Made by a program: the position numbers and the translations under genes
Origin: a virus
Virus record (IMG/VR): IMGVR_UViG_3300020467_000004
Location: 1-64,000 of that record
DNA length: 64,000 nt
Reading direction: 5' to 3' (one strand)
Shown: one piece after another, positions 13,759 through 62,799 of the stretch
How positions within the stretch are numbered: the first letter of the stretch is position 1
Layout of the letters: every line of letters begins with the position of its first letter
Notes under the pieces: model-generated
Databases searched by the model: none
Seen by the model: the letters and a program-made list of their open reading frames with translations, nothing else
Told to the model about the DNA's origin: nothing

Positions 13759-13802
13759 TTTTAAATTACTCCAGGTATTGGGGGCCGTGACCCCCATATC
13801 CA

Positions 13803-16703
13803 TTATCTACGGTAGGTTTTAGGTAAGAAACCGATAGGTTTTGTCCCTAACACTACACCATACGCTACTGTATTACCATTGAGGTCTTTATCAAAAGCAA
13901 CGTTTGAAGTCGAATGCCCTTCAAACTCACCATCATCACCATGTCTGGTGATAGGTGCTAGTTCAAACTGCCCTACAAAAGAACCATCTTCACGATAGAT
14001 ATTACCATCATCGTAATTAACACGATGTAGATCAAAACTGGCTTCACCCCATGTTTGATTGGTTATTGTTTGTCGTGTCGCCAAGACCAACCCCTCGATG
14101 AAACTATTTCGATTGTTAATCAGTTTAAAATGCTCACCAATCTCCAAATTAACAGTTTGTGGTGTAGACAAATCTATTATGGTAACTGGTTTATCACCTG
14201 TTTCGTAATACAGCTGTTTGAACGTCAATTGTGGATAGATCAAGTTATTCTTGGTTTGGTGTCCCAAGCTCACGTGGAATTTAACACCGTTAGACGGGTC
14301 TAACGAATCCAGCTCCGCATGTGCAAGATCTTGAGTCCACGTACCATCTAACACGTAACCATCACGTGTATGTAGTAGACCTATGCGTTCTCGACGATAT
14401 CTTAAAGGATCAGAACCATCACCCACTGGAACCTGACCGGTAAGTGAGTAATTAACTAAACCCCCCTTCTTAATATCTGCTGAAGTTGTAGCCCAAATAC
14501 CACTTATAGCAGCATTGGCGAAAGGTAATCTTCGAGTACTGCCATTAAAAAGAGATGCTCTTTTAACCACAGATGCCGACGATCGGTATTGTAGAAGTTG
14601 AATTTGGTTTTCAGGGACCACGTGCATAGAGCTGTTTGAAAAACCAATATAACGTCCTAGATAAGAAGTACTAGTAAGCCAGTTTTCACCTAGATTATCA
14701 GTAATTAGTAGACTACTAGATGTACGTTCTATCTTTCTACGACCTTTATATTCTTTAGATGTATTATCTGGTATGGAAGGAATCCAATCCATACAGGGTA
14801 CGGTTGTGACGCCGTATGATAATAATAAATCTAAAAGCTTCTGCGGTGTTGCTATTACATCAGTGGTGATATGTCGTTGCATAGAAACATCGGACTCTTT
14901 AAAGGATATAACGATTACCTCGTCATTTACCTCCCAACCATCTGTTATAAAATGGTTAACATTACCACTTGAACCCCACTGTCCTAAGATTGTCTGAGGG
15001 TCTATTGATTTATCAATAGACCAGTACGAATTAGAATTATCGTAACGAATACCTGGCTGAAGAAGGTCTTTAGTAACGTTATATAACCAACAACCGGTTC
15101 TAAATTCGTTATCAGGAGCGTCAAGTAATGTTATTTGAGCATTGCTATCTACAGTCTCAATTGTAGATTTAAATACATTCATTAACTTCAACGGCTCCCA
15201 ACCCCTGACCTTGCCGAATACATAATCGTAGGCTAGGTCTTCTACGTCAATACCCGCGCCGATGGCAGGTAAGCGTAAATCGTCAACCATATCTGCACGT
15301 ATTATATCATGCACGTATTGAAGAGGGTGACCACTCTTACCAGACACATGTGTTCCAGAATTAGGGTAGATGCCTTCTTCCTGGGGACCTGTAGCTATTT
15401 TAAAACAATCCGCTATTGATTCTGGTAAATACACCCCATCAATATACCACGGGTTATCTGAATTTTCAGTTTGTTTTCTGAACGTTGCCGTGCCCAATGG
15501 GTTATAAACAGGATGATAACCACCCTGGTTAAGACGTGTAACTTTTGCAATTGGTAAGAAGTAACAAGCCCCTTCACTCATTCCGGCTGATGAAAAGCTA
15601 TTAAGTGACCATATTCCAGGTGCTTTCTCAGAATAAGAATTTCTAGGAGTTAACACACGTCTACCCCCAGTCAACCTATATTGAGTAGTATATAGAGAAT
15701 AACCTTGAAATTGCAAAACCCCACCGACATCATAGTCTGCAGCACTGATAAAAGTAGCGGTATACGCATCTTCTACCGTAGACCATTTCCACTGTTGACC
15801 TAACGATGGTACTGAACGTATACGATACTGCCACTGGTAATATCTACCATCTTCTTCGTAGATGTTATTATCAGGATCGGCCATCCACACATTTCGCTCT
15901 TCTGCAGTAAGATCACTCCAACGGACACCAAAACCAGGTCCATTTACTCGGGTAACATCGACACCCTCGTGGGTAAATTGATCCACTGGCCAGCTTTCCT
16001 GCCAGCTTCCGAATTTTGAATAATCTTCATGCATTAAATCATTTTGAAGATCAAATCCGTTCCAATCTTTTTCACCATTTTGAACATTACCATAAGGGTA
16101 AACTACATTAACTTTACCCTGTTTCAGCTCTACTAGGAATACTTCCATTCCTACTAGATCTTCACGAGATACCATATCGCGGGTTTCAAAAAGTGTAGTG
16201 TTTGTTAAACTAGAACCAGCAGTTGACCCGTCAGGGTGAATGCAGACGTAGATGTTGTTGCCTACAACAACATGGTCACCCTGCTGGTAGTCCTTAGTAG
16301 TCGTTGTACTTAACTCGGGTGTGGCCATAGGTGCAGGTGGTAGTAGAATACGGTTAGTGTCGTATTTAACCTCATCGTAACTCTCATGATAGCTTGTATC
16401 ATGGTTAGTGCCTCTAAGGTGGACTACAATACCGTCAATGTTAAAAATAGGATAATCCGATTCACTAACACCGCCACCGCCTGTTTGAAAAGTACTACGC
16501 CCCATGTATAGGCTGTCATATACAGATGAAGAGAAAGTAAACAGACCCTCACCCATTACATAATCAGTATTATCCCAATGGCGTCCTGGCTCTATGTAAC
16601 CGCTAGAGGCAAAAATACCTCTGTTATGTTCACGGTTAGCTTCAAACTGTGCCTTAGATAGTGATCTAAGCACACCTGGAACTCTATTAGCTATATCTGT
16701 CAT
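13803..16703 (-). CDS. Large tail fibre / receptor-binding protein, paralogue 2
   Basis: 966 residues. The ATG at 16703 has SD GGAG and aligns with paralogue 3 (MTDIANRVPG versus MTNLANRLPD), so the extended start at 16778 is rejected. It shares the full block order of paralogues 1 and 3 and ends in GFLPKTYRR. A 68-bp stretch (16216-16283) is identical to 19187-19254 in paralogue 3, implying recent duplication or gene conversion. Three tandem copies could let one virion carry several binding specificities, or be alternative subunits of one fibre. Specific receptor unknown. Confidence 0.78.
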   Translation of the reverse strand: MTDIANRVPGVLRSLSKAQFEANREHNRGIFASSGYIEPGRHWDNTDYVMGEGLFTFSSSVYDSLYMGRSTFQTGGGGVSESDYPIFNIDGIVVHLRGTNHDTSYHESYDEVKYDTNRILLPPAPMATPELSTTTTKDYQQGDHVVVGNNIYVCIHPDGSTAGSSLTNTTLFETRDMVSREDLVGMEVFLVELKQGKVNVVYPYGNVQNGEKDWNGFDLQNDLMHEDYSKFGSWQESWPVDQFTHEGVDVTRVNGPGFGVRWSDLTAEERNVWMADPDNNIYEEDGRYYQWQYRIRSVPSLGQQWKWSTVEDAYTATFISAADYDVGGVLQFQGYSLYTTQYRLTGGRRVLTPRNSYSEKAPGIWSLNSFSSAGMSEGACYFLPIAKVTRLNQGGYHPVYNPLGTATFRKQTENSDNPWYIDGVYLPESIADCFKIATGPQEEGIYPNSGTHVSGKSGHPLQYVHDIIRADMVDDLRLPAIGAGIDVEDLAYDYVFGKVRGWEPLKLMNVFKSTIETVDSNAQITLLDAPDNEFRTGCWLYNVTKDLLQPGIRYDNSNSYWSIDKSIDPQTILGQWGSSGNVNHFITDGWEVNDEVIVISFKESDVSMQRHITTDVIATPQKLLDLLLSYGVTTVPCMDWIPSIPDNTSKEYKGRRKIERTSSSLLITDNLGENWLTSTSYLGRYIGFSNSSMHVVPENQIQLLQYRSSASVVKRASLFNGSTRRLPFANAAISGIWATTSADIKKGGLVNYSLTGQVPVGDGSDPLRYRRERIGLLHTRDGYVLDGTWTQDLAHAELDSLDPSNGVKFHVSLGHQTKNNLIYPQLTFKQLYYETGDKPVTIIDLSTPQTVNLEIGEHFKLINNRNSFIEGLVLATRQTITNQTWGEASFDLHRVNYDDGNIYREDGSFVGQFELAPITRHGDDGEFEGHSTSNVAFDKDLNGNTVAYGVVLGTKPIGFLPKTYRR
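16216..16283. repeat. 68-bp identical repeat within fibre paralogue 2 (copy A)
   Basis: Direct repeat, identical base for base by eye to 19187-19254. It encodes the start of the block GDHVVVGNNIYVCIHPDGS. Flanking sequence diverges at once, which points to local gene conversion or selection on this segment rather than uniform conservation. Confidence 0.85.
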
Positions 16704-16740
16704 TGCTAATTCTCCGTTAAGGGGCGTTAGCCCCTTATAA

Positions 16741-19644
16741 TTAAACGATTGATTTACGACGTTTATGTCTAGGTACAAAACCGAGAATTTCGTCAGTTCT
16801 AAAAGATCCGTATGTGATTATATTCCCATTAAGATCCTCACCTAACCTTAGGTGTTGTGCGTTAGATAGTATACTATCATCGCCACTCTTTGAAACAGGG
16901 TCAACGGCTGCTATATCCCAAAAATATCCATCCTTCCTATAAACACGCCCATCATCGATACCGATCTGCCACCCATCGAAGTGCGCTGCAGGAACAGTAA
17001 CATTAGTATCGCGTAGTGCAACTAATGGCACGTTAGCTATCCCAGATGTAGACGAATTTACCATCATGAAGCGCTCACCCTTCGTTACATTGACTGTAAC
17101 GTTCGATTCACTTAGGTCGATAACTGTTAACACGTCATCACGGTACACGTTACGAACTTCTTTAAAGAAACCCTGCCCGTATATCGTACCAGCGTTACGG
17201 TCGTAGGTTAAAAATGGCGAAAACTTCACGCCGTCTTCATCAGTATCTCTGATAGTAATGTCCGTATGGAATATAGACCCATAAAGACCAGACTCCGGGT
17301 AGTCGAAATTGAAGGCGTCATTATACCCCATTCCATTTCTGATCAGTTCGTATGAAATCGATTGAGGGTTTGTGTCTCCAGTTGTGATTTTACCGGTTAG
17401 GTTATAGCAAAGCGACCCCCCCTCTTCTACCTTATATATTCCTGTATAATGTACAGCTCCATACTCGCCATCTAACAACCCTAAACCGGTACCCGTATGA
17501 TATAGCGATGAGGCGGGAGTGTTATACATCAACATCAAGACATCAGTCGCTGGATTTACAATAGTTGCTGCATTAGCGGGGGATCTAAACCCCTGCAGGT
17601 AGCTAGAATAACCATTTAATGTCCAATAGCTACCTGCATTGTCGCTCTTCAGCATAGGTAGTGCGTTTTGAACATGACGTCTAGCTTTACAAACAACCCC
17701 ATCATTACCATTAGAACCTAGCATTTCAGGTATCCAACTCATGCCAACTACCCGATCTACGTTAAAATACTCGAACGTCTCTACTAGTTTCTCAGGTGTG
17801 CAGATTAAGTCAATCTTTTCTAAACGATTACCATAGTGACGAATTCGCTTGAAATTAATAGCAACAACCTCATCGCCTACTTCCCAGCTGTTGATATGGG
17901 ATCCGTCGCTATAATAACCATAAGGCTGGTCTAATATTTCGGGATTTACTTCGACATGGTTCGTGAAGAACAGCTCGTTTCCATTACCATCAACATTGGC
18001 AGTAAAACTAAATACTTCACCTTTAGTTTTATTATACAGCCAACATCCTCCTATATATGCGGTAGGTTCAACGCCGTCGTGGTCGGGTAACACGTTGATA
18101 TCTAATGTAAGTCTATTGACGCCCTTAGTAGAGATTACGCCTTGGGTGATTTTCATCATCATAGACCTCTCCCACCCTCGGTGATGTGTGCTAAGTAGTT
18201 TTCTAGCAAACTCATCTGCAGTGATGTCTATGCCGTGTGCTGACATACGGAGATCTTTAACCTGCCAATCGTAGATGTTATCGTGACGATAGTCCTGGGG
18301 ATGTCCACTGCGGGCGCTAATTTTAAACCCAGAATGTTCGTATATACCTTCAGATTGAGCAGTTGGTCCGATTTTAAAACAATCCGCTACCGATTTAGGC
18401 TGGAATGTATTAATATTTTCCCAACGGTTATCACCGTTTATATCCTGACGTCGAAAAGTACGCGTACCTGTGGGGTTGTAAAATGGGTGGTAACCTCCCA
18501 TATTCAAACGCGTTACTCTTGCTAAACCTACGTGATAAACTCTACCATTGGCAGACAATTTCTGTTGTTCGACAGTCACGTATTCTGAATTACTTGCTGC
18601 AACACCTAGAGTGGTTTCTTTAGGGAATGAAAAATGCTGCGTAGTCAGCATGTAGTTAAATGGGTAACCTTCGTCCACTGTAAGAAAGTAAGGACCTGCT
18701 TCTTCTAACTTACCTTGCGGAGCATAATAGCGGTGAGTTGGGTTTTCAGGTACAAAGTCTCTACCATCAGCGATAGCTGAAACAGTTGTATCCCAAGCGC
18801 ACGCATTTTTCCAAAATCCACCGCGAGATGGTACTGAACGGAGGCGATACTGCCACTGGTAATACTTGCCATCCTCAACATAGATGTTGTTAACTGGATC
18901 ACTAGCCCACCAGTTACGTTCTTCTGGCGTCATGGTGGACCATTTCATACCACGACCTATGGTAGCAGTATCCCCAGTGTAAAATGCGCTGTATGTTTGT
19001 GGCATTACTGAAGAATATAAAGTCTGACGCTTCCACGTTGTCGGTGTATAATGAACGTTACCGTAAGGATATACGGCATCTACATCATCTTTGCTCAGCT
19101 CTACTAGGAATACTTCCATCCCTACTAGATCTTCACGAGATACTACATCCCTTACTTCGTAATACGTATCGTCCGTAAGCGCGACGCCAGCAGTTGACCC
19201 GTCAGGGTGAATGCAGACGTAGATGTTGTTGCCTACAACAACATGGTCACCCTGTTTATAATCTTGGGTAGTGATAGTACTAGCTTCAGGATAGGCCATT
19301 GGCGCAGGCGGCAATAGGACATGATTGTTTTCTTCTGTAGACCAATTTATACCGCAAAGATGGATTATTATCCCATCCACATGGTAAATGGTGTTCTCAC
19401 TATCACCATCACCATAGCCATCCGCGTAGGGTCTACCTAATCTAATAGCCTGGGTTATGTTATTAGATGTCCATAGACCACCACCGTTAGACCTGGTCAG
19501 CGTGGGTTCAATACCTAAAGATTTACCTGGCTCTATGTAGCCTGACGCAGCGTACTTGTCGCGGTTGATGTCACGTCGTGCATTAAATGCAGCGGCCGAC
19601 AGAGGTGGTTGACTATCGGGGAGCCGATTGGCTAAGTTAGTCAT
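16741..19644 (-). CDS. Large tail fibre / receptor-binding protein, paralogue 3
   Basis: 967 residues; the first-transcribed of the three tandem large fibres. Blocks as in the others: SGYIEPGKSL, GDHVVVGNNIYVCIHPDGS, SREDLVGMEVFLVEL, VYPYGNVHY, YQWQYRLRSVPS, VARVTRLN-type, GGCWLYNKTKGE, and C-terminal LGFVPRHKRR. The region after ~residue 240 differs strongly from the paralogues. SD AGGAGTATCTACTC precedes the ATG. Predicted trimeric beta-structured host-binding fibre. Confidence 0.78.
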   Translation of the reverse strand: MTNLANRLPDSQPPLSAAAFNARRDINRDKYAASGYIEPGKSLGIEPTLTRSNGGGLWTSNNITQAIRLGRPYADGYGDGDSENTIYHVDGIIIHLCGINWSTEENNHVLLPPAPMAYPEASTITTQDYKQGDHVVVGNNIYVCIHPDGSTAGVALTDDTYYEVRDVVSREDLVGMEVFLVELSKDDVDAVYPYGNVHYTPTTWKRQTLYSSVMPQTYSAFYTGDTATIGRGMKWSTMTPEERNWWASDPVNNIYVEDGKYYQWQYRLRSVPSRGGFWKNACAWDTTVSAIADGRDFVPENPTHRYYAPQGKLEEAGPYFLTVDEGYPFNYMLTTQHFSFPKETTLGVAASNSEYVTVEQQKLSANGRVYHVGLARVTRLNMGGYHPFYNPTGTRTFRRQDINGDNRWENINTFQPKSVADCFKIGPTAQSEGIYEHSGFKISARSGHPQDYRHDNIYDWQVKDLRMSAHGIDITADEFARKLLSTHHRGWERSMMMKITQGVISTKGVNRLTLDINVLPDHDGVEPTAYIGGCWLYNKTKGEVFSFTANVDGNGNELFFTNHVEVNPEILDQPYGYYSDGSHINSWEVGDEVVAINFKRIRHYGNRLEKIDLICTPEKLVETFEYFNVDRVVGMSWIPEMLGSNGNDGVVCKARRHVQNALPMLKSDNAGSYWTLNGYSSYLQGFRSPANAATIVNPATDVLMLMYNTPASSLYHTGTGLGLLDGEYGAVHYTGIYKVEEGGSLCYNLTGKITTGDTNPQSISYELIRNGMGYNDAFNFDYPESGLYGSIFHTDITIRDTDEDGVKFSPFLTYDRNAGTIYGQGFFKEVRNVYRDDVLTVIDLSESNVTVNVTKGERFMMVNSSTSGIANVPLVALRDTNVTVPAAHFDGWQIGIDDGRVYRKDGYFWDIAAVDPVSKSGDDSILSNAQHLRLGEDLNGNIITYGSFRTDEILGFVPRHKRRKSIV
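19187..19254. repeat. 68-bp identical repeat within fibre paralogue 3 (copy B)
   Basis: Identical to 16216-16283 in the neighbouring paralogue. A further ~45-bp near-identical stretch, with a few mismatches, is shared by all three genes around 13218, 16132 and 19099 (coding the SREDLVGMEVF block). Confidence 0.85.
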
Positions 19645-51312: not shown

Positions 51313-52932
51313 GTGTCAGTCGACAAACTTCCCTTTAATATTGATTTATTATCCAGCGTAAGCTTTACACGCTCACTGCCGGAAATACGTTCGCTTGACA
51401 TATACGAACGTCAAGACCACCTTAACTTCCACCCTGAGGGACTTTACTCTACAGAGATTTTCGGACGGATGGGGGAACCAGCAAGAGATAATCAATTTGC
51501 TTTTATTGACATGAAAGTACCGGTGCTTCATCCGGTTATCTTTAAGACATTAACCACCATGCGTGCGCTATATAAGAACATCTTAAGCGGTAAGACGTAT
51601 GCTGTCTTTAATGAAAAGACCAGTGACTTTGAAGCCTCTAATGCGCAGGATGGTAAAACTGGTTATGCATTCTTTATGTCACATTTTAAGTCACTAGCAT
51701 TAAAGCGTAACCGTTCTAAAAAGCGTGATTTAAAAATAGACTTGATTGAGAAATATCAAGATAAAGCTACCGTCAAGCATCTGATTGTTATCCCTGCGGG
51801 TCTACGTGATTTAGAAAACAGTGACGGTGGGCGAGTTAAAGAAGATGAGATTAACGATCTCTATCGACGCGTGTTAAGTATCGCTAAAACCATCAGCGTT
51901 ACCCAAGGTAATTTAGAAGGGGAACTGTTTAACTCTGTACGCTGGAGTATGCAGGTTGCCTTTAACCAGATTTACGAAACGCTACGTACCATGATTGAAG
52001 GTAAGCGTGGCTTCATCCAAAGTAAATGGGGTCGCCGCAAGATCTTCAACGGAACACGTAATGTTATCTCGGCTATGACAACATCTGCTGTATCTAGCGA
52101 TGATCCTAAAATGCCAGATGTTCACGACACTATGGTAGGTTTGTTTCAAACATTGAAAGGGTGTTTACCTCTTTCTATGTATTGTATTCGTCAAGGGCTG
52201 ATTGGTCAGGTATTCAGTCAAAGTGATAGTGGTGTCAGGTTGATTGATCCTAAGACGTTGAAACTTGTCACGGTAGATGTTAAGCCTGCTACTATTGATA
52301 AGATGGTAAGTAGTGAAGGTCTTGAGCAGTTAATTAACCAGTTCCAAGATCGATTCTTTAGAAACCGTTATGCAAGTATAGACGATCATTACATCGGATT
52401 AATCTACGACAACGGGACTGAAGTTAAAATCTTTAACGATATTACTCAGCTGCCTGATGATAGAAAGATAGAAGATGTCAGACCGATTACCTGGGCTGAA
52501 TTACTCTATCTTAATTGCTATGAACGTTTTGATAAAGTCAAATGTGTTGTTACACGCTACCCTGTAACGGGCATTGGCTCTACGTATTATAGTAGAGTAT
52601 ATCTAAGAACGACCACCACCGGTCTTGTGCGTTATGTGTTAAATGATGTATGGGAACGTGATGAAGATAAGCTGTTAGCTAAAGAAATGCCTAACACCGA
52701 CCATAGTGATAGTTACATGGACAGCGCCATGGTTCATGGTTCTCGACTAGCTGGGCTTGGTGGGGACTATGATGGTGATATGATCTCTGTTAACTATTTA
52801 TACAGTAAAGCAGTAGATGATGTAGAACGCTATCTCAATAGTAAAGACGCTTATCTAGATCCACGTGGTGGTTTACAGCAAGCAAGTACGGATCTCATTG
52901 ATTGGGCACTGTTTAACCTTACACGCGCTTAA
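51313..52932 (+). CDS. RNA polymerase beta' subunit, N-terminal fragment
   Basis: 539 residues from a GTG with SD TAAGGAGG. SKWGRRKIFNGTRNVISA (residues 237-254) matches the beta' LLGKRVDYSGRSVI region; TRYPVTGIGSTYYSRV (R415, P417) matches NRAPTLHRLGIQAF; and GGDYDGDMISV with D485, D487, D489 is the absolutely conserved catalytic Mg motif NADFDGDQM. The chain then ends within ~50 residues, so the bridge helix, trigger loop and C-terminus of beta' must be on another polypeptide outside the window. Split beta' is known from phiKZ and AR9 RNAPs. Whether this is the virion or non-virion enzyme is not determinable. Divergent from the tape measure gene. Confidence 0.88.
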   Translation: MSVDKLPFNIDLLSSVSFTRSLPEIRSLDIYERQDHLNFHPEGLYSTEIFGRMGEPARDNQFAFIDMKVPVLHPVIFKTLTTMRALYKNILSGKTYAVFNEKTSDFEASNAQDGKTGYAFFMSHFKSLALKRNRSKKRDLKIDLIEKYQDKATVKHLIVIPAGLRDLENSDGGRVKEDEINDLYRRVLSIAKTISVTQGNLEGELFNSVRWSMQVAFNQIYETLRTMIEGKRGFIQSKWGRRKIFNGTRNVISAMTTSAVSSDDPKMPDVHDTMVGLFQTLKGCLPLSMYCIRQGLIGQVFSQSDSGVRLIDPKTLKLVTVDVKPATIDKMVSSEGLEQLINQFQDRFFRNRYASIDDHYIGLIYDNGTEVKIFNDITQLPDDRKIEDVRPITWAELLYLNCYERFDKVKCVVTRYPVTGIGSTYYSRVYLRTTTTGLVRYVLNDVWERDEDKLLAKEMPNTDHSDSYMDSAMVHGSRLAGLGGDYDGDMISVNYLYSKAVDDVERYLNSKDAYLDPRGGLQQASTDLIDWALFNLTRA

Positions 52933-52995: not shown

Positions 52996-53247
52996 ATGAA
53001 ATGCATAGCATGTCATAGTAACATGTCGCTCGCTTCAGGTCCTCATATGCCAAAGATCGCTATCTACACCTGCGAGTGTGGAGCCTTGGTGAAAAAAGGA
53101 CTGACGCAAGACACTGCTACTACGTGGATTCACCCCAGCGGTATGATTGAAACTGATCGCGCATGTAACGTTTCTATCAACGATCCAAACTGCGACCACC
53201 GTGATGATCAAATGGCTGGTTGGAAGTTTAGCGTTGTTAGCGCTTAA
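52996..53247 (+). CDS. Small zinc-binding-like protein, 83 residues
   Basis: CIAC near the N-terminus and CECG about 26 residues on form a zinc ribbon-like site; further Cys and His lie in the C-terminal half (RACNVSIND, NCDHRDD). Its leader GGAATGTAACCGATGA is identical to that of RNase H. Followed by a terminator with the TTATGCCGT tail. Possibly a small DNA- or RNA-binding early protein; no function recognised. Confidence 0.72.
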   Translation: MKCIACHSNMSLASGPHMPKIAIYTCECGALVKKGLTQDTATTWIHPSGMIETDRACNVSINDPNCDHRDDQMAGWKFSVVSA

Positions 53248-53251
53248 GAAG

Positions 53252-53289
53252 AGTAGGGTGGGGTAAGCTCCATCCTACTTATGCCGTGC
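53252..53289 (+). terminator. Hairpin terminator with TTATGCCGTG tail
   Basis: About 12-bp stem with G-T pairs: AGTAGGGTGGGG / CTCCATCCTACT, loop TAAG, then TTATGCCGTG. Another plus-strand member of the family. Confidence 0.75.
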
Positions 53290-53303
53290 TACTAATCTTT
53301 AAA

Positions 53304-53313
53304 CCTATATTAT
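53304..53313 (+). promoter_or_regulatory. Candidate promoter CCTATATTAT
   Basis: AAACCTATATTATCCC lies just after the terminator and ~45 nt before the 53358 gene. It differs from CCTACATTAC at two positions and matches, as remembered, the phiKZ early element TATATTAC even better. Would drive the 53358-54532 unit. Confidence 0.35.
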
Positions 53314-53357
53314 CCCTACGATAGCCCTTTATGAACTTATAAATAGGATTAATTCTA

Positions 53358-53657
53358 ATGGATGTAAAAACAGATTATAACACCATGCTTAATGACCTTT
53401 TAAGTCAAATTAAATCGTTAGGTGAAGATGATCGTTTTGAGAAAGTGAAATATCTTAACAATGATCTTGTGCACCGTCACTATCCGCTGATACATTCTCT
53501 CATTGAAAATGTATTTATTACAGAACGTGGTAGTCCTAACTACTCTGCCATTATTCATTTTGAAAATAATGGGATCAAAGTAGGACCTGGTGAGACTGAT
53601 GGGTTTGGCTGGGTAACCGGCTGCGTGCATACGGCAAAAGGCATCATTGTCTTTTAA
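53358..53657 (+). CDS. Small paralogous protein A, 99 residues
   Basis: Helical first half (YNTMLNDLLSQIKSLGEDD), beta-rich second half ending DGFGWVTGCVHTAKGIIVF. It aligns along its length with the next gene (YLNNDLVHRHYP versus YLDEDVVGSKYP; GFGWVTG versus QFGWYSG; HTAKGIIVF versus KTAKGRVIF). Such small tandem early genes in giant phages often target host proteins. No known family recognised. Confidence 0.75.
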   Translation: MDVKTDYNTMLNDLLSQIKSLGEDDRFEKVKYLNNDLVHRHYPLIHSLIENVFITERGSPNYSAIIHFENNGIKVGPGETDGFGWVTGCVHTAKGIIVF

Positions 53658-53674
53658 CTAAAAGGATATCAATA

Positions 53675-53977
53675 ATGTGTAGTGGTCAGGAACATCATTA
53701 TACTGAACTTAAAAAACAACTTGAAGCGTTAGAAGCTGATCCTAGCATTCGCCCTAGCGCTTATCTGGATGAAGATGTGGTGGGTAGTAAATACCCTGCG
53801 CTTATCTCGTCTGCTAGAAAACACATTACAGGGTTTACTGGAAAACCTCGTAAAGAGATAATTGCACTATTTAAACAATGGGGTTACGAGATAACCCCAT
53901 GTGGTTTCGATCAATTTGGCTGGTACAGTGGAATGATTAAGACCGCAAAAGGTCGTGTAATATTTACAGCAACATAG
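53675..53977 (+). CDS. Small paralogous protein B, 100 residues
   Basis: Tandem paralogue of the 53358 gene, 17 nt downstream, with AAAGGATATC as SD. Shares the pattern YL-DV/L-Y-I-F-G-P...FGW-G-TAKG-F. Cys content differs (CSGQEHH start). Duplication followed by divergence is clear at the protein level; DNA identity looks low, so the event is old. Confidence 0.75.
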   Translation: MCSGQEHHYTELKKQLEALEADPSIRPSAYLDEDVVGSKYPALISSARKHITGFTGKPRKEIIALFKQWGYEITPCGFDQFGWYSGMIKTAKGRVIFTAT

Positions 53978-54001
53978 ATAATTAGAAAGGAAACACGCGC
54001 T

Positions 54002-54532
54002 ATGCTAACATCAAGCCGTTATATGATGCCAGCAACGTTAAACGATGAAGAGAAACGTTTTAAAGAGGTATTCGCAGACTTAGTTAAAAAGGTAACCATC
54101 TGGGGACCTAATCAGCCAAGCATTGCTGAGTATATAATTGAAACTTTATATACCGAAACCACCACTACCATGACTAGTTATGATACGCAGCAAGGCGTGC
54201 CGCACTACATTAATGGTAAGTGTGTAATGCTATTCTGGTTACTTAAGTATTGTCGAAATAAAGGTATTGGTAATCACAATACCAAACTAATCATCAAGCG
54301 TACTGTTTCAATTAAAGAACTAAAACGCAACACCATTGCAGTCAATCTGTACGATACGGTCAATCACGATAATAGTATATTTAATTCTAATATCCATGCC
54401 TCTACATTAAGTATAGACAATGACCATGTTGAACTTACTGTTGATATTCTTACCTATGTGATAAAACGCATGGCTTATGAATATCATTTTGAAAATAATC
54501 AAATGACGCTATATAAGTTGGAAGGGGTATAA
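54002..54532 (+). CDS. Hypothetical protein, 176 residues
   Basis: SD AAAGGAAA. Alpha/beta, with a basic middle (WLLKYCRNKGIGNHNTKLIIKRTVSIKELKRN) and a C-terminal helix-rich segment. No recognised motif. Co-transcribed with the 53358/53675 pair, and its stop lies inside a hairpin terminator. Function unknown. Confidence 0.7.
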   Translation: MLTSSRYMMPATLNDEEKRFKEVFADLVKKVTIWGPNQPSIAEYIIETLYTETTTTMTSYDTQQGVPHYINGKCVMLFWLLKYCRNKGIGNHNTKLIIKRTVSIKELKRNTIAVNLYDTVNHDNSIFNSNIHASTLSIDNDHVELTVDILTYVIKRMAYEYHFENNQMTLYKLEGV

Positions 54533-54553
54533 GCCTCTTCCAACTATGCCGTC
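54517..54553 (+). terminator. Hairpin terminator with TATGCCGTC tail
   Basis: About 11-bp stem GTTGGAAGGGG / CCTCTTCCAAC, loop TATAAG, overlapping the stop codon of the 54002 gene, followed by TATGCCGTC. Confidence 0.8.
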
Positions 54554-54577
54554 GTTCTGCCCTTGAAGGAATACCTC

Positions 54578-55603
54578 ATGACACTAGATAATCCTAAATT
54601 AGAAAGACCTTTACCAACACAGTTGTTATCTGTTGTGTTACATGGTTACGATCAAATAGTAGAGTTTCTACTCGATGATAATCCGCCTGCTGATGACTTT
54701 GTTAAATACGCATTTCAACTTCAGCACGATATTGAGAAACACTCTAGATTAAAGGATCGGTTTGAAGACCAGAACATGGTAGACCTTGCGTTTAGTTTGT
54801 TAGAGCGCTTGGCTTATAAAAACACGGCGTACCATCAATTACTTCCTACCTATACGAATATTAAGAATAAAGAAATCTTTATACTTGTTAAAAGTTGGTT
54901 TAATGGGTCGATTGAAGATTATGGGGTCGAGTTGTTACGAAAAGTCGTGGCTGATAAACCCGATACGTTTAACAGTATTTTGATGATGCTTAACTTAGCC
55001 GGGATACCTATTATCAAACGTGTTGATAAGCTCTACTTCTACGGGGACTCTACGCTAATAGTAGATCTTGTAGATAGTGGTGAGGTTGCTGAAGAGTCGG
55101 TTGCTGCTGTTGAGGAAATGTTTGGCACCGAGATAGTGCTAAGTGGTGTTCGCCTATCGCCTGAGCTTATAAATGCAAGCAATGTGATTACTGGTGAAAG
55201 AACATTAGATGTGCTTAACTTTACGTATTTAATAAAAAATGCATTAGTTAACAAAGAGTACATGGACTCTGTTAGTAGTCCTAAGACACGCGTAGTTAAT
55301 TTAACGGCAATGCAGATCTTGTTGACGTTAACACGCGATGCGTTGAGGTACGACACCTATATGGATGTTAGTCGATTAATCACCCCGCTTATACCACGGT
55401 CTATAAATGACACGTTTTCAACACAAATCGATCTGATAAAAGAACAAACCGGCGTGCTAACCGTACGTGGGTCTACCCTACGCCATGATGATACCGTCAG
55501 CGTCATTGCTACCGCATTTAGCCTATTAGGGTTTGATGTGGAGCTTGAAACAAAAGATAACGGTAAGAAACTTATATCGTTTAACAACCCTAATCTAAAA
55601 TAG
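54578..55603 (+). CDS. Hypothetical protein, paralogue of the 55623 gene
   Basis: 341 residues from the ATG at 54578 (SD GAAGGA); a TTG at 54563 overlaps the SD. Helical N-terminal half, then a block LMMLNLAGIPIIKRVDKLYFY that corresponds to LRVLNTVGMVTTRLGDVYYFY in the 55623 product, and a C-terminal AFSLLGFDVELETKDNG matching AFELLGIEMDDKKSV. A winged-helix-like reading (helix, turn, YFY wing) is possible but unproven. No known enzyme motif. Early-type genes. Confidence 0.7.
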   Translation: MTLDNPKLERPLPTQLLSVVLHGYDQIVEFLLDDNPPADDFVKYAFQLQHDIEKHSRLKDRFEDQNMVDLAFSLLERLAYKNTAYHQLLPTYTNIKNKEIFILVKSWFNGSIEDYGVELLRKVVADKPDTFNSILMMLNLAGIPIIKRVDKLYFYGDSTLIVDLVDSGEVAEESVAAVEEMFGTEIVLSGVRLSPELINASNVITGERTLDVLNFTYLIKNALVNKEYMDSVSSPKTRVVNLTAMQILLTLTRDALRYDTYMDVSRLITPLIPRSINDTFSTQIDLIKEQTGVLTVRGSTLRHDDTVSVIATAFSLLGFDVELETKDNGKKLISFNNPNLK

Positions 55604-55622
55604 CCCTTAAGGAAATTAAACC

Positions 55623-56738
55623 ATGAGAACTTATAACGCTTTAAACATGCAACCCAGTGAATGGTCTAGTAAGCAAGCAACCACAACATCTGTTTGGGGA
55701 CGCAAAAATACACCACCTATTACCAGCGGTATACAAACCGAACAAATTATTGGTGATTACCACTACATTGTAGCTAACATCTTGGACGGCAGTATTAATG
55801 AGAAAGAAACGTTGCTTCGTTCTTTGATTCGTTTACGCGATGATGTTTTATATTGTAACGATAATCGAGATATAATGGAGCTACTTTCGGCGTATGAGAT
55901 TGGCATGGTCCTTATGCGTTGGATCAAACAAGTAGCTAAAGACACCACTACGGTTCAGTGCTTTGAAATGAATATTGCAAGTCTTGATAAACCTACAGGT
56001 TCTATCATCTCTATACTTGCAGATGCATGGATACATGGTACGGATAACTTTACTCATGACACCGTTGAGAGCGTATTAACTGCTGCGCCTAATGTACAGT
56101 TAAATGCATTACGTGTATTAAATACTGTTGGTATGGTTACAACACGTCTTGGTGATGTATATTACTTCTATAAGCCCGACAACACGTCGGGATTTAACCT
56201 TAAAGAAGAATATGCTAAGTATAGTGTGGAGAGGACGCATGGGGTATCTGTTGACGACCATATAGAAACAGAAGCACCTGGTGTCATTAGTGATGAACCA
56301 CTTAAAGACTTGTATCACTGTACGTTGAATCTACTTGATCATGATGTGGTAGATAGCGATGCGGTTAATGCATTAGTTATGAAATATTACACTAACAATT
56401 CTCAACGTAAAGCTAAACGTGAAGTCCTGGTGGCGGAGGGAATTATTCTTTCTACTATCGTTGAAGTAACTAACAAACAATGGGCAACAAACATGTTACA
56501 GTCAACATGCAAACAACTGCCTAAATACTTTAACTGTGAAGACGGTATATTTGGTCAGTTTAACTATTACCGTAGCATAAGCACAACGCAGATAGAAATC
56601 CCTAAGAGCGCTAAAACACGTGCAAAAGCCCGTGAGACCATCCTTGCTGCCTTTGAATTATTAGGCATTGAAATGGATGATAAGAAAAGTGTTTCAGATA
56701 CAATAGCTTATGTTGTACCTGGTCGTCAAGTTCTGTAG
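55623..56738 (+). CDS. Hypothetical protein, paralogue of the 54578 gene
   Basis: 371 residues; SD TTAAGGA, 19 nt after its paralogue. Shares the two blocks listed there, in the same order and similar spacing. Contains a long helical centre and a C-terminal region with basic residues (KSAKTRAKARET). The last gene before the long non-coding region, so it may form a unit with the origin candidate; that is speculation. Confidence 0.7.
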   Translation: MRTYNALNMQPSEWSSKQATTTSVWGRKNTPPITSGIQTEQIIGDYHYIVANILDGSINEKETLLRSLIRLRDDVLYCNDNRDIMELLSAYEIGMVLMRWIKQVAKDTTTVQCFEMNIASLDKPTGSIISILADAWIHGTDNFTHDTVESVLTAAPNVQLNALRVLNTVGMVTTRLGDVYYFYKPDNTSGFNLKEEYAKYSVERTHGVSVDDHIETEAPGVISDEPLKDLYHCTLNLLDHDVVDSDAVNALVMKYYTNNSQRKAKREVLVAEGIILSTIVEVTNKQWATNMLQSTCKQLPKYFNCEDGIFGQFNYYRSISTTQIEIPKSAKTRAKARETILAAFELLGIEMDDKKSVSDTIAYVVPGRQVL

Positions 56739-56759
56739 GTTGTAGCACGAACCACGTAA

Positions 56760-56769
56760 CCTACATTAC
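56760..56769 (+). promoter_or_regulatory. Exact CCTACATTAC motif upstream of the non-coding region
   Basis: Third exact intergenic plus-strand copy. Followed immediately by an AGAGGAGGGGG run and a hairpin terminator, so any transcript would be short (a small RNA of ~60 nt), or the motif serves another role. Confidence 0.3.
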
Positions 56770-56787
56770 GTAAAAGAGGAGGGGGTG

Positions 56788-56842
56788 TCGTAGAAGGGGG
56801 AGTCACGTCCCTTCTACCCTCTCTTCTTTTTTTGCCTTTAAA
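56788..56842 (+). terminator. Hairpin terminator with T tract
   Basis: Stem GTAGAAGGG / CCCTTCTAC with a 10-nt loop, then CCTCTCTTCTTTTTTTGCC. Ordinary intrinsic terminator after the 55623 gene. Confidence 0.7.
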
Positions 56843-57061
56843 AAGCACTGTACGCTGTTTTAAGCCGGTTAACCCATATAACCTATCCCATAGCCCTATC
56901 CCTCAACCGCGTGCGCTCACGCCCCGCTGCGCGCCCTGCCCGAAATTCGCCTACTGGCTGTGTGTTTTTAGTTTTCTGTTTTAATAAATTTGATTTTTAA
57001 TTTATAAAACTATTGTGTAGTTGTGTTGATTGTATTTCTTTAATTAGTTATATTTTCTTAT

Positions 57062-57151
57062 CTAAAATTATTAGTTACTTGTATTTATTACTAAAAATAG
57101 GTTACTTGTAATTTAGTCTATTTCTAAAATAATTATTACTTGTACTTTTAT
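57062..57151 (+). repeat. Three iteron-like direct repeats
   Basis: Units start at 57062, 57091 and 57124, each about 27 bp with CTAAAA, then 6-8 nt, then TTACTTGTA (57075-57083, 57102-57110, 57136-57144), and an AT-rich end. Nine of nine bases of TTACTTGTA are conserved in all three. Spacing of the cores is 27 and 34 bp. Confidence 0.65.
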
Positions 57152-57235
57152 AAAAATATAACTATAATTTGCTTGGGAATTATTTTGTAACATTCTAGTT
57201 TATTAGGTATGAGCGGAGCGTAGCGACAACCCCAT

Positions 57236-57267
57236 TCCCCCAAAGGGGGGATTATAAGAATCCCCCC
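57236..57267 (+). other. Mutually exclusive GC hairpins
   Basis: CCCCC-AAA-GGGGG can pair, or GGGGGGATT-ATAAG-AATCCCCCC (9-bp stem, 5-nt loop) can. They share the G run, so only one can form, as in attenuators. Two further runs of six or more G follow at 57286-57302. Confidence 0.55.
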
Positions 57268-57411
57268 GGGAGAGGATGGTAGAGATGGGGGGCCGTGGGG
57301 GGAAGAGAAGGAAACCCAAACGTCAAAAAGTGTCTGTGAAAAAATTGAGTAAACACACGGTAAATTTCATGCATCGTTATGAACCTGTCACATACACGTA
57401 AGGATAGCCAT

Positions 57412-57747
57412 ATGCGACGTACCGTCGAATGCGATGAATCTACACCGCTAGGTATCGGTGTGGCCATCGAACATCTCAACTATATCATCGATGCACTTAA
57501 TAACCACATCGGTAAAAAAACCGTGAAAGTGTATAACTTTATCGGCATCAGCTCACTTAAAGATTACCATCTATGCTACAACCATGCGGTTCGCTTATGT
57601 AATATTTTAAAAGCTAGGCAAAAGAAGTATGACCTTAGTGATGACACGCCTATTGAGACGGTCTATCTAGGGTTAATGTTAAGTGTGTTAAATAAGGCAC
57701 GCGACCTTAAAATAATTCACTTAATCCCAGCCAGAAGGACCCCATGA
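57412..57747 (+). CDS. Hypothetical protein, 111 residues
   Basis: ATG at 57412 with SD TAAGGA; a start at 57379 is further from an SD. Helical, with a basic N-terminus (MRRTVECDEST) and YHLCYNHAVRLCNILKARQKKYDL. The first gene after the non-coding region and the first of a four-gene unit ending in RNAP beta. No recognised family; could be a regulator or accessory of the polymerase. Confidence 0.65.
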   Translation: MRRTVECDESTPLGIGVAIEHLNYIIDALNNHIGKKTVKVYNFIGISSLKDYHLCYNHAVRLCNILKARQKKYDLSDDTPIETVYLGLMLSVLNKARDLKIIHLIPARRTP

Positions 57748-57751
57748 TCTC

Positions 57752-58348
57752 ATGAACCACTACACGTATCAGCATGTCGATGCAGTGAATTTCCATCGAC
57801 ACATAATCAAAGGTATCGACCGTATTATCGATCATGCCAACGCGCTTCACAAAGCTGTCCTGCCTTCTCTTAATGCCTATTATCCTGATCTAGATGGTTA
57901 TGTTAAAAAACTCATGCAGTTTGAAACCGATCTACCCCTCGAGGATGCTTTAGATACGATGCTAAATGTAGTAGATGATACCGCATATACGTTACAGGCA
58001 AGTCCGTTCCCTATCACAGACGCGCATGATAACTACCCACTGCTAGTTAATACCGTCACCGCGCACGATAAGCGTCAATGGGTATATCTGATGATTCCCT
58101 ATCCCTCTACCTTCATTGGTGGGGCATTAGCGAAAGAGAAGATGATGACCTTAGCGTTAGCGTATCGCCGTAGCAATACGTTCATACACACGTTTGCACC
58201 TATCGTCACCCCTCAAGATGGATTACCAGGCCCATCTAGCATCACGATCACCGAGAGCGATTTTAAGGCATATAAAGCATGCATGGATATCGTAGGTGAT
58301 TTAGGATACTTGAAACATTTTCAACATGTTCGAGTACAACCTGCATGA
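57752..58348 (+). CDS. Hypothetical protein, 198 residues
   Basis: ATG 4 nt after the previous stop; overlaps the next gene by 4 nt. N-terminal half helical and His-rich (FHRHIIKGIDRIIDHANALH); then beta strands (WVYLMIPYPSTFIGGALAKEKMM). No catalytic motif. Transcribed with RNAP beta, so a transcription-related role is possible but not shown. Confidence 0.68.
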   Translation: MNHYTYQHVDAVNFHRHIIKGIDRIIDHANALHKAVLPSLNAYYPDLDGYVKKLMQFETDLPLEDALDTMLNVVDDTAYTLQASPFPITDAHDNYPLLVNTVTAHDKRQWVYLMIPYPSTFIGGALAKEKMMTLALAYRRSNTFIHTFAPIVTPQDGLPGPSSITITESDFKAYKACMDIVGDLGYLKHFQHVRVQPA

Positions 58349-58815
58349 TAGGCGCGCTTATCCACCGCGACGTTATCCGCCATCATCGGGAGATGAGCCA
58401 CTATGCACTTAAACATGCAGGTGGTAACAAAGCGTTTAAACGTCGATTAATAAGTCATCTTGGTCAAATGCAATTACTTGCACCCTTACTCACCTCTATC
58501 ACCCTGAAGCAGCTACGCGGGTTGATAGAGGGAGATAGGGACCTTTATGCCTTTACTGAGAGACTCCCTAAACCAAATGCGGGGTTATGGGTCGAGCTCA
58601 CCACCGTTAAGATAGCTTCTGGTAATGCCGAGATTTATTATAAGTTAGATTTAACAACCAGTCGTTTGGATCCCTTTACGTTTATTGTTCTTAAACGTAA
58701 ATACGAGACCTTGTATCAGTATCAGGAAACGTTATTAGATCCAAAAACCCATTACATAACCCGTGCGATGATTAGACGTCAGCTTCATGCGTTTAATCCC
58801 ACATCCAGTGAATAA
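58345..58815 (+). CDS. Hypothetical protein, 156 residues
   Basis: Starts in an ATGA overlap. Basic and helical N-terminus (HRDVIRHHREMSHYALKHAGGNKAFKRRLISHLG) suggests nucleic-acid binding; the C-terminal half is alpha/beta (LWVELTTVKIASGNAEIYYKLDL). 12 nt upstream of RNAP beta. Could be an RNAP-associated factor. Family not recognised. Confidence 0.68.
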   Translation: MIGALIHRDVIRHHREMSHYALKHAGGNKAFKRRLISHLGQMQLLAPLLTSITLKQLRGLIEGDRDLYAFTERLPKPNAGLWVELTTVKIASGNAEIYYKLDLTTSRLDPFTFIVLKRKYETLYQYQETLLDPKTHYITRAMIRRQLHAFNPTSSE

Positions 58816-58827
58816 GAGGTTAGTCGC

Positions 58828-61800
58828 ATGTCTTTATACGACGCGTTCTATAGAGAAGTGGGTGTACGCACCCCTCAACAGCTTGTTAACCCCAAGACGG
58901 CCCCCATTAACACATTGACACTGCCACGTGACAGCATCATCCATTACCTACCTACCACGTCTACCGACATGGGGATAGATGCGCGTGATCCATTGTTATT
59001 AAACCATGACAGTGAAGTCTTCATTCACCACATCGAAGCGCTTAAAAGTGAATTAGGCACACCACGATTAAACCGAGGTGCCTATAAGCAACACGTGCAA
59101 AACTACCATAAGCGTTTTAGAAAGCACCGTTTACTGCGTCGCTTAGCTAGCGGTTTACGCGATCCACGTAGTTTAATAGTAAGCAACTACGCATCGTTAA
59201 CTAGCGTATATCAATATCGTCAACACGCACTCGCAACATACTACCGCTATTATAACCTACACACTACGCTTTATGCTGAGATCATCGCATTAGCTAAAGA
59301 GACCGACCGTCAGCACTTCATCCCGGTTACGTTACCAAAAGTATTACCTGAGCGTGATGATTTAGATCGTGCAATCGGTAAAGTTAAACCAGGTGATATG
59401 CCGCGTTCTTTATTAACCCAGTTTAAAGAGAATGCTGCATTGACGTATCTAGACCTTTACCTGTGGTTAAGCGGTGAGGCGGGCGTTACTTCATTAAGCC
59501 ATACACCGGTTGAAGTCTTAAAACGCATTAACCTGGTATTTATTGAGTCAGGCCAATTCAGTGTTTTATCGTTAAGTCATCTTGTCGAATGGATGGAGAC
59601 GGATAACGATTTAAATGACAAACTCCGTCGTTTCTATATGGCGATGTTTGAAAAGCGTACAGTAATGGCTGAAAGCGAAGCAGACGATGAAGTCGATAAT
59701 GCAATTTCTGGCGTACCAGTCGTACCCCCTATTGCTGAACGTAGAACCCAGGCTATTGTTAGCCAGGCTGATGAACTAGCAGATGCAGGTATCCTATCAG
59801 GGGCTGAATATCGCCGCATGGTGAAGCTAGCAGATCAGTTTACACGTATACCTAATCCATACGGCGAGGGTACGCTTGAACAGTTAGCTGCACCTGATAC
59901 TGCGGTGACCATGAGTCAACCTAAAGATACCCTACCTGAGATCAAAGGGGTGGTTGACAAGAGTATGTTAAATACCACCGTCAATGCATTTCATCGAGAA
60001 TACATTAAAAACGTCATGCCTAAAGACATTGCGGCTATGACACTAGGTATTCAGCAAGCAGGCGTAGCAGTAACAGACTACCAAGTTCAGCGTGTTGTTG
60101 ATGCGGTAGATAAATACGACATGTATACGGTTAAGCTAACGCCTGTTAAAGGTCAACCCTCAACGATTCGTTTTAAACTTCCTGTAGTCGAAGAAGATGG
60201 TACATTCCTAGCGGGCGGCGTGAAGATTCGTTATCGTACGCAGCGGGCAGACGTACCCTTGAGGAAGACATCTGCTTCAACGGTTGCGTTAACCAGCTAC
60301 TACGGTAAGACGTTCGTTGAGCGTTCAGGCAAAGTAGTTAACGACTATGGCAAATGGTTAGTTAAACATTTAACCCAAATGACACTGGCTGACAATAGTC
60401 CACTATCTAAAGTGGCGTTTGCTGACGTCATGGTAACCGATGTTGTATTACCACGTGGCTACACTGCCATTGCTAAGGAGATACGCACCTTTACCTTTAA
60501 GGAAGTATTGTTTACTTGGGATTATCCTAATCGTGGTGAAGTATTAGGTATTAACGACCTTAGCGCCTACGAGCAAGATAATCAAGTCGTTATCGGTAAA
60601 CAAGGCAAATACGTTTACACAATGGATCGTAGTGAGATGGTGTATCGTCATCACAACGACTCAATGCAACCTATCGGTGAGCTTTACGAAGTTATCAACA
60701 TTACTGATAGTCAGCCACCTATTGAAATGGCTAGCGTTAAAGTGTTTAGTAAACACATCCCAGTGGGTGTAGTGCTTGCCTTTAAACTCGGTATTGATAA
60801 GTTGATCAAACGCTTAGGGGTAGAGGTTAAACGTGTACCGGTAGGCACACGTGTTCAACTGGCTCCTCAGGAATACAAGATTGTATTTGCTGATGAAACC
60901 TTAGTCGTATCACGCGCTGATCGCGAAGCCAGTTTGATCTTAGGTGGGTTTGTTAGTTACAAGAACGCAATTAAGCAATATAACCTTGAGGATTTCAATC
61001 ATCCAGATGTCTACTTCAATGTGATTAATGAACAAGGTTTATCTGCCCGTTTCATCCAAGAGATGGAATTGATGGATACCATGTTCGTCGACCCTATCAC
61101 TGAGGAGATTCTAACTGAGATGGGTGAGCCAACTACATTTGAAGGGTTGTTGTTTAGAAGTGTAGAATTAGTAGCAACTGATCAACATCCTAAAGAGATG
61201 GATAGTGCGTTCATGCGGCTTCGTGGCTATGAGCGTTTCTCAGGTACGGTCTACAAGCAGATGGTTGAAGCGTTGCGAGAGTATCGTGCTAAGCCTATGT
61301 TGTCTAAAGCCTCAATAAACTTAAACCCTAAAGCGGTATGGTTGAATGTTTTGCAAGATGAATCGACGGAGTTGGTAGAAACCTCTAACCCTGTCCATAA
61401 TCTAAAAGAACACGAGACCCTTACCTTTGCAGGACAAGGTGGTCGTTCTACTAAAACCATGGTGCGTCGTTCACGGATGTTCCATAAGAACGATCTTGGT
61501 GTTATTTCAGAGTCGACCCCTGATAGTGCCAAGGTAGCTATCACCACGTATCTAACACCTGATGCTAAGATACGTAACTTGCGAGGTATGACAGACAGCT
61601 ATACTGAGGGGGATGGGCCTGCTAAATACGTAAGTAGTGTCTCGTTGTTATCGCCAGGTGCGGATAGAGATAGTTCTAAACGTACTAACATGACATCGGT
61701 TCAGCACTCATCAGGTATCCAAGCAGTTGGATATACTAGTACACCTGTCCGTACGGGTTATGAGAAAGTAATGGCACATCGTGTTGATGATCTATTTGCC

Positions 61801-62799
61801 TATACTGCAAAGCAGGATGGTAAGATTACAGACAAAGATGACCGCACAGTTACTATTACTTATAAGGATGGAACTGAAGTCACTAAACCTATTGGCACGC
61901 AATATGCGAAAGTGGCAGACGGTTCAGCCAAACACGTACTTAAATGTGATCTAGAAGTAGGACGCAGTGTTAAAGCAGGGGACGTCATTACGTACAATGA
62001 TGCATTCTTTGAACCCGACTTCTTTGATCCTAAACAGGTGAGCTATAAAGCAGGTGCAATGGCTAAAGTGGTACTGATGGAAACATCGGATACGTTAGAG
62101 GATGGGTCAGCGATTTCACCTCGTTTGTCTAAAGCGCTAGCAACACCTACGGTCAAAACTCGTGCTATTTTAGTACGCTTTGATCAACAAGTTATTAACC
62201 TTGTTAAAGTAGGCGATACGCTTGAGGCTGACGGTATTTTATGTACCATTGAGGATGGCCTTACGGATGACGGTGCGTTATTCGATGAAGAGACGTTAGC
62301 AAGTTTACAAGCGCTAGCGGCTAATAACCCAAAGGCCAAACTTAAAGGTGAAGTTGAAAACATCGAGGTCTTGTATAATGGCGATAAGTCAGATATGAGT
62401 CCTACGTTGCAAACCATCGCCAATCGTTCAGATAGACAACGCAGTCAACTGGCTAAGCAGTATAAAGATGGTCGTGCTACTAATGGTCGTGTTACCGAGC
62501 CTGTAATCATTGAGAAACAACGCATTGAGTTAGATCATGCATTAATCATTGTTACACTATCAACGCTAGCCTCTCACGAAGCTGGTGATAAATTGGTATT
62601 AGGTAATAACCTGAAATCGGTCACCTCTCGTGTATTGCAAGGTACACATGAGACCAAAAGCGGCACGCCTATCGACATGATTTTTGCATACCAGAGTATC
62701 TCTAACCGTATCGCTTTGGCTACAGAAATCATCGGAACAACCAACACAGTACTTGGTGTGATATCCAAGCAAGCACTGGCACTGTATGAGGGGGAGTAA
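58828..62799 (+). CDS. RNA polymerase beta subunit, main body
   Basis: 1323 residues. PVVEEDGTFLAGG (G458-G464) parallels the beta N-terminal MTENGTFIINGTERV; LGVISESTPDSAKVAITTYL (E895-P898) parallels the ICPIETPEGPNIGLI rifampicin-region motif; DRDSSKRTNMTSVQH (946-960) parallels RALMGANMQRQAV; GDKLVLGNNLKS has K1255 and K1263, spaced by 8 as in E. coli K1065/K1073; SGTPIDMIFAYQSISNR (1278-1294) parallels GTPVDIVLNPLGVPSR. The chain ends at the point where E. coli beta has ~230 more residues; that part matches the 38067 gene. N-terminal ~390 residues are unfamiliar. In characterised phiKZ/AR9-type RNAPs beta is, from memory, cut near the middle. Confidence 0.85.
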   Translation: MSLYDAFYREVGVRTPQQLVNPKTAPINTLTLPRDSIIHYLPTTSTDMGIDARDPLLLNHDSEVFIHHIEALKSELGTPRLNRGAYKQHVQNYHKRFRKHRLLRRLASGLRDPRSLIVSNYASLTSVYQYRQHALATYYRYYNLHTTLYAEIIALAKETDRQHFIPVTLPKVLPERDDLDRAIGKVKPGDMPRSLLTQFKENAALTYLDLYLWLSGEAGVTSLSHTPVEVLKRINLVFIESGQFSVLSLSHLVEWMETDNDLNDKLRRFYMAMFEKRTVMAESEADDEVDNAISGVPVVPPIAERRTQAIVSQADELADAGILSGAEYRRMVKLADQFTRIPNPYGEGTLEQLAAPDTAVTMSQPKDTLPEIKGVVDKSMLNTTVNAFHREYIKNVMPKDIAAMTLGIQQAGVAVTDYQVQRVVDAVDKYDMYTVKLTPVKGQPSTIRFKLPVVEEDGTFLAGGVKIRYRTQRADVPLRKTSASTVALTSYYGKTFVERSGKVVNDYGKWLVKHLTQMTLADNSPLSKVAFADVMVTDVVLPRGYTAIAKEIRTFTFKEVLFTWDYPNRGEVLGINDLSAYEQDNQVVIGKQGKYVYTMDRSEMVYRHHNDSMQPIGELYEVINITDSQPPIEMASVKVFSKHIPVGVVLAFKLGIDKLIKRLGVEVKRVPVGTRVQLAPQEYKIVFADETLVVSRADREASLILGGFVSYKNAIKQYNLEDFNHPDVYFNVINEQGLSARFIQEMELMDTMFVDPITEEILTEMGEPTTFEGLLFRSVELVATDQHPKEMDSAFMRLRGYERFSGTVYKQMVEALREYRAKPMLSKASINLNPKAVWLNVLQDESTELVETSNPVHNLKEHETLTFAGQGGRSTKTMVRRSRMFHKNDLGVISESTPDSAKVAITTYLTPDAKIRNLRGMTDSYTEGDGPAKYVSSVSLLSPGADRDSSKRTNMTSVQHSSGIQAVGYTSTPVRTGYEKVMAHRVDDLFAYTAKQDGKITDKDDRTVTITYKDGTEVTKPIGTQYAKVADGSAKHVLKCDLEVGRSVKAGDVITYNDAFFEPDFFDPKQVSYKAGAMAKVVLMETSDTLEDGSAISPRLSKALATPTVKTRAILVRFDQQVINLVKVGDTLEADGILCTIEDGLTDDGALFDEETLASLQALAANNPKAKLKGEVENIEVLYNGDKSDMSPTLQTIANRSDRQRSQLAKQYKDGRATNGRVTEPVIIEKQRIELDHALIIVTLSTLASHEAGDKLVLGNNLKSVTSRVLQGTHETKSGTPIDMIFAYQSISNRIALATEIIGTTNTVLGVISKQALALYEGE

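Follow-up and report, generated by a model that had tools for sequence, protein, structure and literature searches.

A conserved iteron-bearing non-coding element in a Chimalliviridae phage genome is a candidate origin of replication

The window analysed here is the first 64,000 bp (1-64000) of the virus record IMGVR_UViG_3300020467_000004, which is 100,573 bp long. It carries a 673-base region in which no open reading frame is found, flanked on both sides, as the original prediction had said, by genes of the same direction. Upstream lies ORF 51313-52932, a phiKZ-type RNA polymerase beta subunit (phrog_2986, E 4e-189); downstream, 58828-62799 corresponds to the adjoining RNA polymerase gene, with matches in 295 phage records. 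These two genes directly adjoin in phages such as KpGz_1; in the window they are separated by about 5.9 kb (52996-58815) with nine ORFs that have no PHROG match. The features of the region are as follows:

56739..57411, + strand: the whole non-coding region, candidate origin or cis-regulatory DNA, the longest gap in G0, G1 and G5
56759..56776, + strand: early-promoter-like motif ACCTACATTAC + 6N + G, 17.3 bits, weaker than most
56790..56833, + strand: intrinsic-terminator-like hairpin with T7 at the end of the upstream operon; L013 has the same form in another sequence
56834..56960, no strand: C-rich spacer
56961..57207, no strand: AT-rich block, DUE-like
56972..57013, no strand: conserved AT box, an imperfect inverted repeat around TTTTAATAAATTTGATTTTTAATTTATAAAA
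57075..57083, + strand: iteron 1, TTACTTGTA
57102..57110, + strand: iteron 2, TTACTTGTA, 27 bp after iteron 1, a spacing kept in L013
57136..57144, + strand: iteron 3, TTACTTGTA, within a 35-bp unit missing from L013
57208..57324, + strand: hyperconserved G-run block, TATGAGCGGAGCGTAGCGACAACCCCATTCCCCCAAAGGGGGG...CCCAAACGT, found in this clade only
57208..57211, + strand: TATG, possible phiKZ-type late start site, conserved in all homologs
57245..57267, + strand: perfect 9-bp hairpin GGGGGGATT-5-AATCCCCCC, inside the G-run block
57378..57381, + strand: TATG in the conserved CATCGTTATGA, possible late start of the downstream gene, conserved in all homologs
57412..57747, + strand: first downstream gene, 111 aa, no family match, kept beside the region (57% and 75% identity in L013 and L015)

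The record covers part of the genome of a Chimalliviridae phage, about 190.5 kb in size. The contig L011/G001 (here G1; 190,650 bp) comes from the same species, is 98-99.5% identical to the record over most of the overlap, and has ends that overlap exactly by 144 bp; therefore, the genome is a circle of 190,506 bp. The relative G005 (G5; L015 in the alignments) also closes to a circle, of about 189.26 kb. We assign the phage to Chimalliviridae, slightly below 200 kb in size, because G1 encodes chimallin, PhuZ, DNA polymerases, a DnaB-like helicase and TerL. Two marks of the family are present: the chimallin (ChmA) gene (G1 58227-60095) matches phiKZ gp54 with E 1.7e-42, and both the virion and the non-virion multisubunit RNA polymerase sets are encoded (phrog_2986, 2987, 3015).

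The claim that the region is free of genes held, and no gap in the 100,573-bp record is longer. In G1, the counterpart is again the longest gap (641 bp vs 460 and 438 by ORF calling). The region is the only gene-free stretch above 300 bp in the window record, and not in the whole genome, where G1 has two more of 438-460 bp. The alternative that it is a physical genome end fails: in at least five other records the contig runs on across the region, two relatives circularise at unrelated points, and a near-identical contig forms a circle, so this is no end. The downstream gene starts at the ATG at 57412, a start kept in L015, and the next three downstream-encoded proteins are 54-75% identical between relatives. 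No family was matched by the proteins flanking the region. The product of 57412-57747 is the best modelled of these neighbours (pLDDT 86.5) and has no fold match at E<=0.001; the predicted structure of the product of the gene at 57752 is of poor quality. The region occurs in one copy per genome, and its G-run block was not found in sequences outside the clade; a mobile or plasmid-derived origin was rejected, as no DNA match was obtained in phages, plasmids or genome contigs. No tRNA was detected in the region.

We aligned the region from five records and compared its identity with that of fourfold codon sites in the neighbouring genes. The fourfold sites are saturated, with 32-52% identity to L015 and 28-41% to L013. 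The AT box, by comparison, is 100% identical in L012 and L015 and 93% in L013, the iteron zone 95% in L015 and 85% in L013 (one 35-bp unit being missing in the latter), and the G-run block 92% and 94% in L015 and L013. Altogether, a core of about 350 bp, from about 56972 to 57324, is mostly 85-100% identical, and the spacer and the tail around it drift; 3' of the G-run block, identity falls to 67% in L015 and 49% in L013. Because the core is conserved while the fourfold sites are saturated, a DNA stretch of about 350 bp is under selection, and as judged from these alignments the region is established as a strongly selected, non-coding and evidently cis-acting DNA element. G1 and G5 recently exchanged DNA at G1 163-172 kb, and part of the G1/G5 identity in the region could come from recombination; L013 is independent, which answers this doubt about the L015 values for the G-run block and the AT box.

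The AT-rich block has 17.6% GC in a 250-bp window, the next lowest value being 30.8%, and in G1 it has 15.5% over 200 bp, followed by 28.5%. In all four genomes compared (the window record G0, the complete G1 and G5 and the partial G4), it is by a wide margin the global minimum of both GC and nearest-neighbour duplex stability, a computed stability that makes it a candidate DNA-unwinding element. The three TTACTTGTA iterons claimed for this AT-rich DNA are indeed there, at 57075, 57102 and 57136 (+). TTACTTGTA is the sole 9-mer present three times within 80 bp, one coding repeat aside; when the AT block is shuffled with dinucleotides preserved, some 9-mer appears three times in 2.9% of the shuffles, so the count alone is modestly above chance and weakly significant. 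Conservation of the copies in the aligned relatives is the stronger evidence: L012 and L015 have three, and L013 has one exact copy and one with a single mismatch. The number of iterons varies by one 35-bp unit among relatives and the 27-bp spacing is constant; L013, lacking one unit, keeps the remainder of the element. The tandem direct repeats expected of an iteron origin are therefore found as three conserved, non-coding copies of 9 bp, two in L013. The iteron core, TAC-N2-GTA, is a near dyad. In 11 related records, TTACTTGTA occurs elsewhere at background frequency and clusters only at this region, and this background frequency rules it out as a genome-wide promoter motif.

Before the iterons, the original prediction had placed a GC-rich patch, and after them strong hairpins and G runs. 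The hairpins and G runs were confirmed, as the GGGGGGATT/AATCCCCCC hairpin and G6 runs; this hairpin is mutually exclusive with CCCCC-AAA-GGGGG just 5' of it, and four of the eight G/C runs of >=6 in the whole 190-kb G1 fall in one 60-bp stretch inside the G-run block. The patch before the iterons, the C-rich spacer, is real as well and is unconserved (45-47% identity to L013 and L015). A coding role of the G-run block was rejected, as the changes in open frames are mostly non-synonymous, the window frame has a stop and L015 has +1/-1 indels. A conserved RNA fold is likewise unsupported: the folds of the region differ from homolog to homolog (z about -1.1 for two of the three), no compensatory change was observed among the G-run blocks of the homologs, and neither an Rfam match nor a covarying structure was found in the region. 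It is the sequence rather than the structure that is kept.

Two motifs came out of a de novo motif search for transcription signals. ACCTAYATTAC resembles phiKZ-type early promoters, and its strand split is 13:0 in G1 (all on the + strand), 12:0 in G5 and 11:0 in G004; because it lies on one strand only, in the window record as well, early transcription is predicted to run one way round the circle. The copy at 56759 is absent from L013 and L015. Late promoters of phiKZ have TATG as their start motif (PMC5312081); here this motif shows an enrichment of about twofold before genes. TTATGCCGT was dropped as a late promoter, since it follows hairpins at gene ends.

We propose, at about even chances, that the region may be the origin of replication of this Chimalliviridae phage, the best reading of its sequence. 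The original prediction of an origin here gains from the stability minimum, the selected non-coding core and the iterons found in four genomes, and loses from skew. The cumulative skew check that it suggested was made with G-C and T-A at fourfold sites, after removing the gene-strand effect, and gave no extremum at the region in either of the two complete genomes, G1 and G5; because skew locates no origin convincingly in both genomes, this result is uninformative to mildly negative. The shortness of the iterons (9 bp) and their lack of helical phasing also count against an origin, as does the want of an obvious counterpart in phiKZ and G010. The upstream terminator-like hairpin, which isolates the region, and the analogous AT-rich non-coding block of G7 and G8 count in favour. 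Family and fold searches found no recognised initiator gene among the neighbours. A host-type origin using DnaA was rejected, as no DnaA-box cluster was seen: there is a single TTTTTCACA match, and the window total is below chance.

From this anatomy, we infer each functional step of a possible mechanism. A phage protein would bind the TTACTTGTA iterons, and this binding would melt the AT block next to them, where the DNA of the genome is at its least stable. On the other side, the G-run hairpin block might hold a second protein; alternatively, it could be the place where the DnaB-type helicase and the polymerases of the phage load or prime. More tentatively, and at somewhat less than an even chance, this may be the first located origin of a nucleus-forming phage, in which an iteron, unwinding-element and G-run arrangement would be used by a phage initiator inside the phage nucleus, with no part for host DnaA; other chimallivirus lineages would carry unrelated blocks of analogous make-up. 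In the literature searched, we found no mapped origin described for phiKZ-type phages or Chimalliviridae; a recent review does not cover the way in which nucleus-forming phages start DNA replication (PMC12908238), and for two giant phages the origins predicted by software had low reliability (PMC12390700). A single defined element of about 350 bp, conserved as DNA, offers a direct target for origin mapping and initiator capture.

Other functions need to be weighed against an origin. Possible, though rather unlikely, is that the region controls the downstream late virion-RNA-polymerase operon: a phage regulator would bind sites in the AT-rich DNA, late transcription would start from a TATG promoter at 57208, and the transcript would either carry a long, structured 5' leader or be a free non-coding RNA. 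This explanation stays alive because TATG is enriched before genes and two copies in the region are kept in all homologs; the downstream operon leads to the RNA polymerase gene 58828-62799, and phiKZ intergenic regions do yield non-coding RNAs (PMC8545117). However, the conserved core reaches more than 200 bp of AT-rich DNA 5' of the putative start, the differing folds and missing compensatory changes described above do not suit a structured leader, and other late genes have no comparable region. Packaging (a pac site) is an unlikely reading, as is protein binding for another purpose, for example genome partition or phage-nucleus anchoring. Hyperconserved iteron DNA in single copy per genome, without coding or RNA signal, would fit such a site, but TerL is 22 kb distant, the contigs of relatives end at points that bear no relation to the region, and headful packaging, without a certain packaging signal, was inferred for two giant Aeromonas phages (PMC12390700).

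An origin of another kind, primed by transcription in the manner of T7 or T4 oriF/oriG, would have the early virion RNA polymerase start at 56776 and its transcript prime in the AT block. In the window species, the early-type motif is indeed directed into the region; in L013 and L015 the motif is missing and the core is still kept, and the terminator-like hairpin intervenes between motif and AT block, making this version quite improbable. Scarcely credible is that the conservation is due to a small basic peptide of 41 aa (57276-57401, MVEMGGRGGKRRKPKR...). A Shine-Dalgarno-like GGAGAGG precedes it, and its frame is open in both the window and L012, as it is over a shorter length in L013; however, all four tail changes between the window and L012 alter an amino acid and the L015 frame is broken, and on these two grounds the peptide was rejected as the cause.

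The candidate origin resembles known systems in part. In ori-lambda, tandem iterons adjoin an AT-rich tract opened by the initiator (PMC7466680), and tandem iterons also stand beside an AT-rich tract here. Unlike lambda, where the iterons are 19-bp inverted repeats inside the initiator gene, those of the window are 9 bp long and intergenic, no O or P homolog was found near the region, and a G-run block is added. Iteron plasmid origins (Rep/DUE) share the direct repeats and the unwinding element, a candidate one here, whereas the region has no recognised Rep gene or DnaA boxes and its repeats are fewer and shorter. At the T7 primary origin and at T4 oriF/oriG, a phage promoter adjoins an AT-rich unwinding region. 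The window likewise has an early-promoter-like motif near AT-rich DNA, but the motif is unconserved and the terminator-like hairpin lies between the two.

A parallel within the phage family is in the outgroup pair G7 and G8 (G007 and G008), whose RNA polymerase is 44-45% identical to that of the window phage. Between their two RNA polymerase genes there are only small genes and no such region. Elsewhere in these genomes (G007 194475-195053(-) and G008 184977-185637(-)), in another place and an unrelated sequence, lies a comparable conserved AT-rich non-coding block, with 74% DNA identity over 615 bp between flanking proteins that are 44% identical; its order, terminator, AT block and G-run element, is that of the window region. 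No obvious counterpart was seen in phiKZ or G010. The gap between the RNA polymerase genes of phiKZ was rejected as one, as it is not AT-rich and resembles intron sequence.

Several minor observations were made in these genomes. A conserved non-coding stretch of about 440 bp between virion genes (G001 115138-115575, equal to G005 158922-159369) has hairpins and two TTATGCCGT signals. TATGCCGT has 36 sites in G001, for example at 3906, 38850, 86028(-) and 177572(-), and is also present in L015, G007 and G008. It stands after a hairpin at 33 of the 36 G001 sites (9% in a random control) and <=120 nt 3' of a same-strand stop codon at 30 of them, and some sites lie between convergent genes. In these phages it resembles a signal for 3' ends or termination that takes the place of the U-tract; we found no description of such a signal in the literature searched. 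The exchange between G001 and G005 appears as stretches of 100% identity within G001 163000-172000, the genomes being about 76% identical elsewhere, and it concerns large minus-strand genes, the counterpart of window 10915-19644. Finally, RNA polymerase genes of relatives, not those of the window, carry inserts of 1.3-2 kb (L012 11456-12754, L015 11435-13471 and L017/L018 about 13700-15240). The inserts sit at about residue 485/486, or 475/476 in the next gene, and are intron- or homing-endonuclease-like; those of L015, L017 and L018 contain ORFs.
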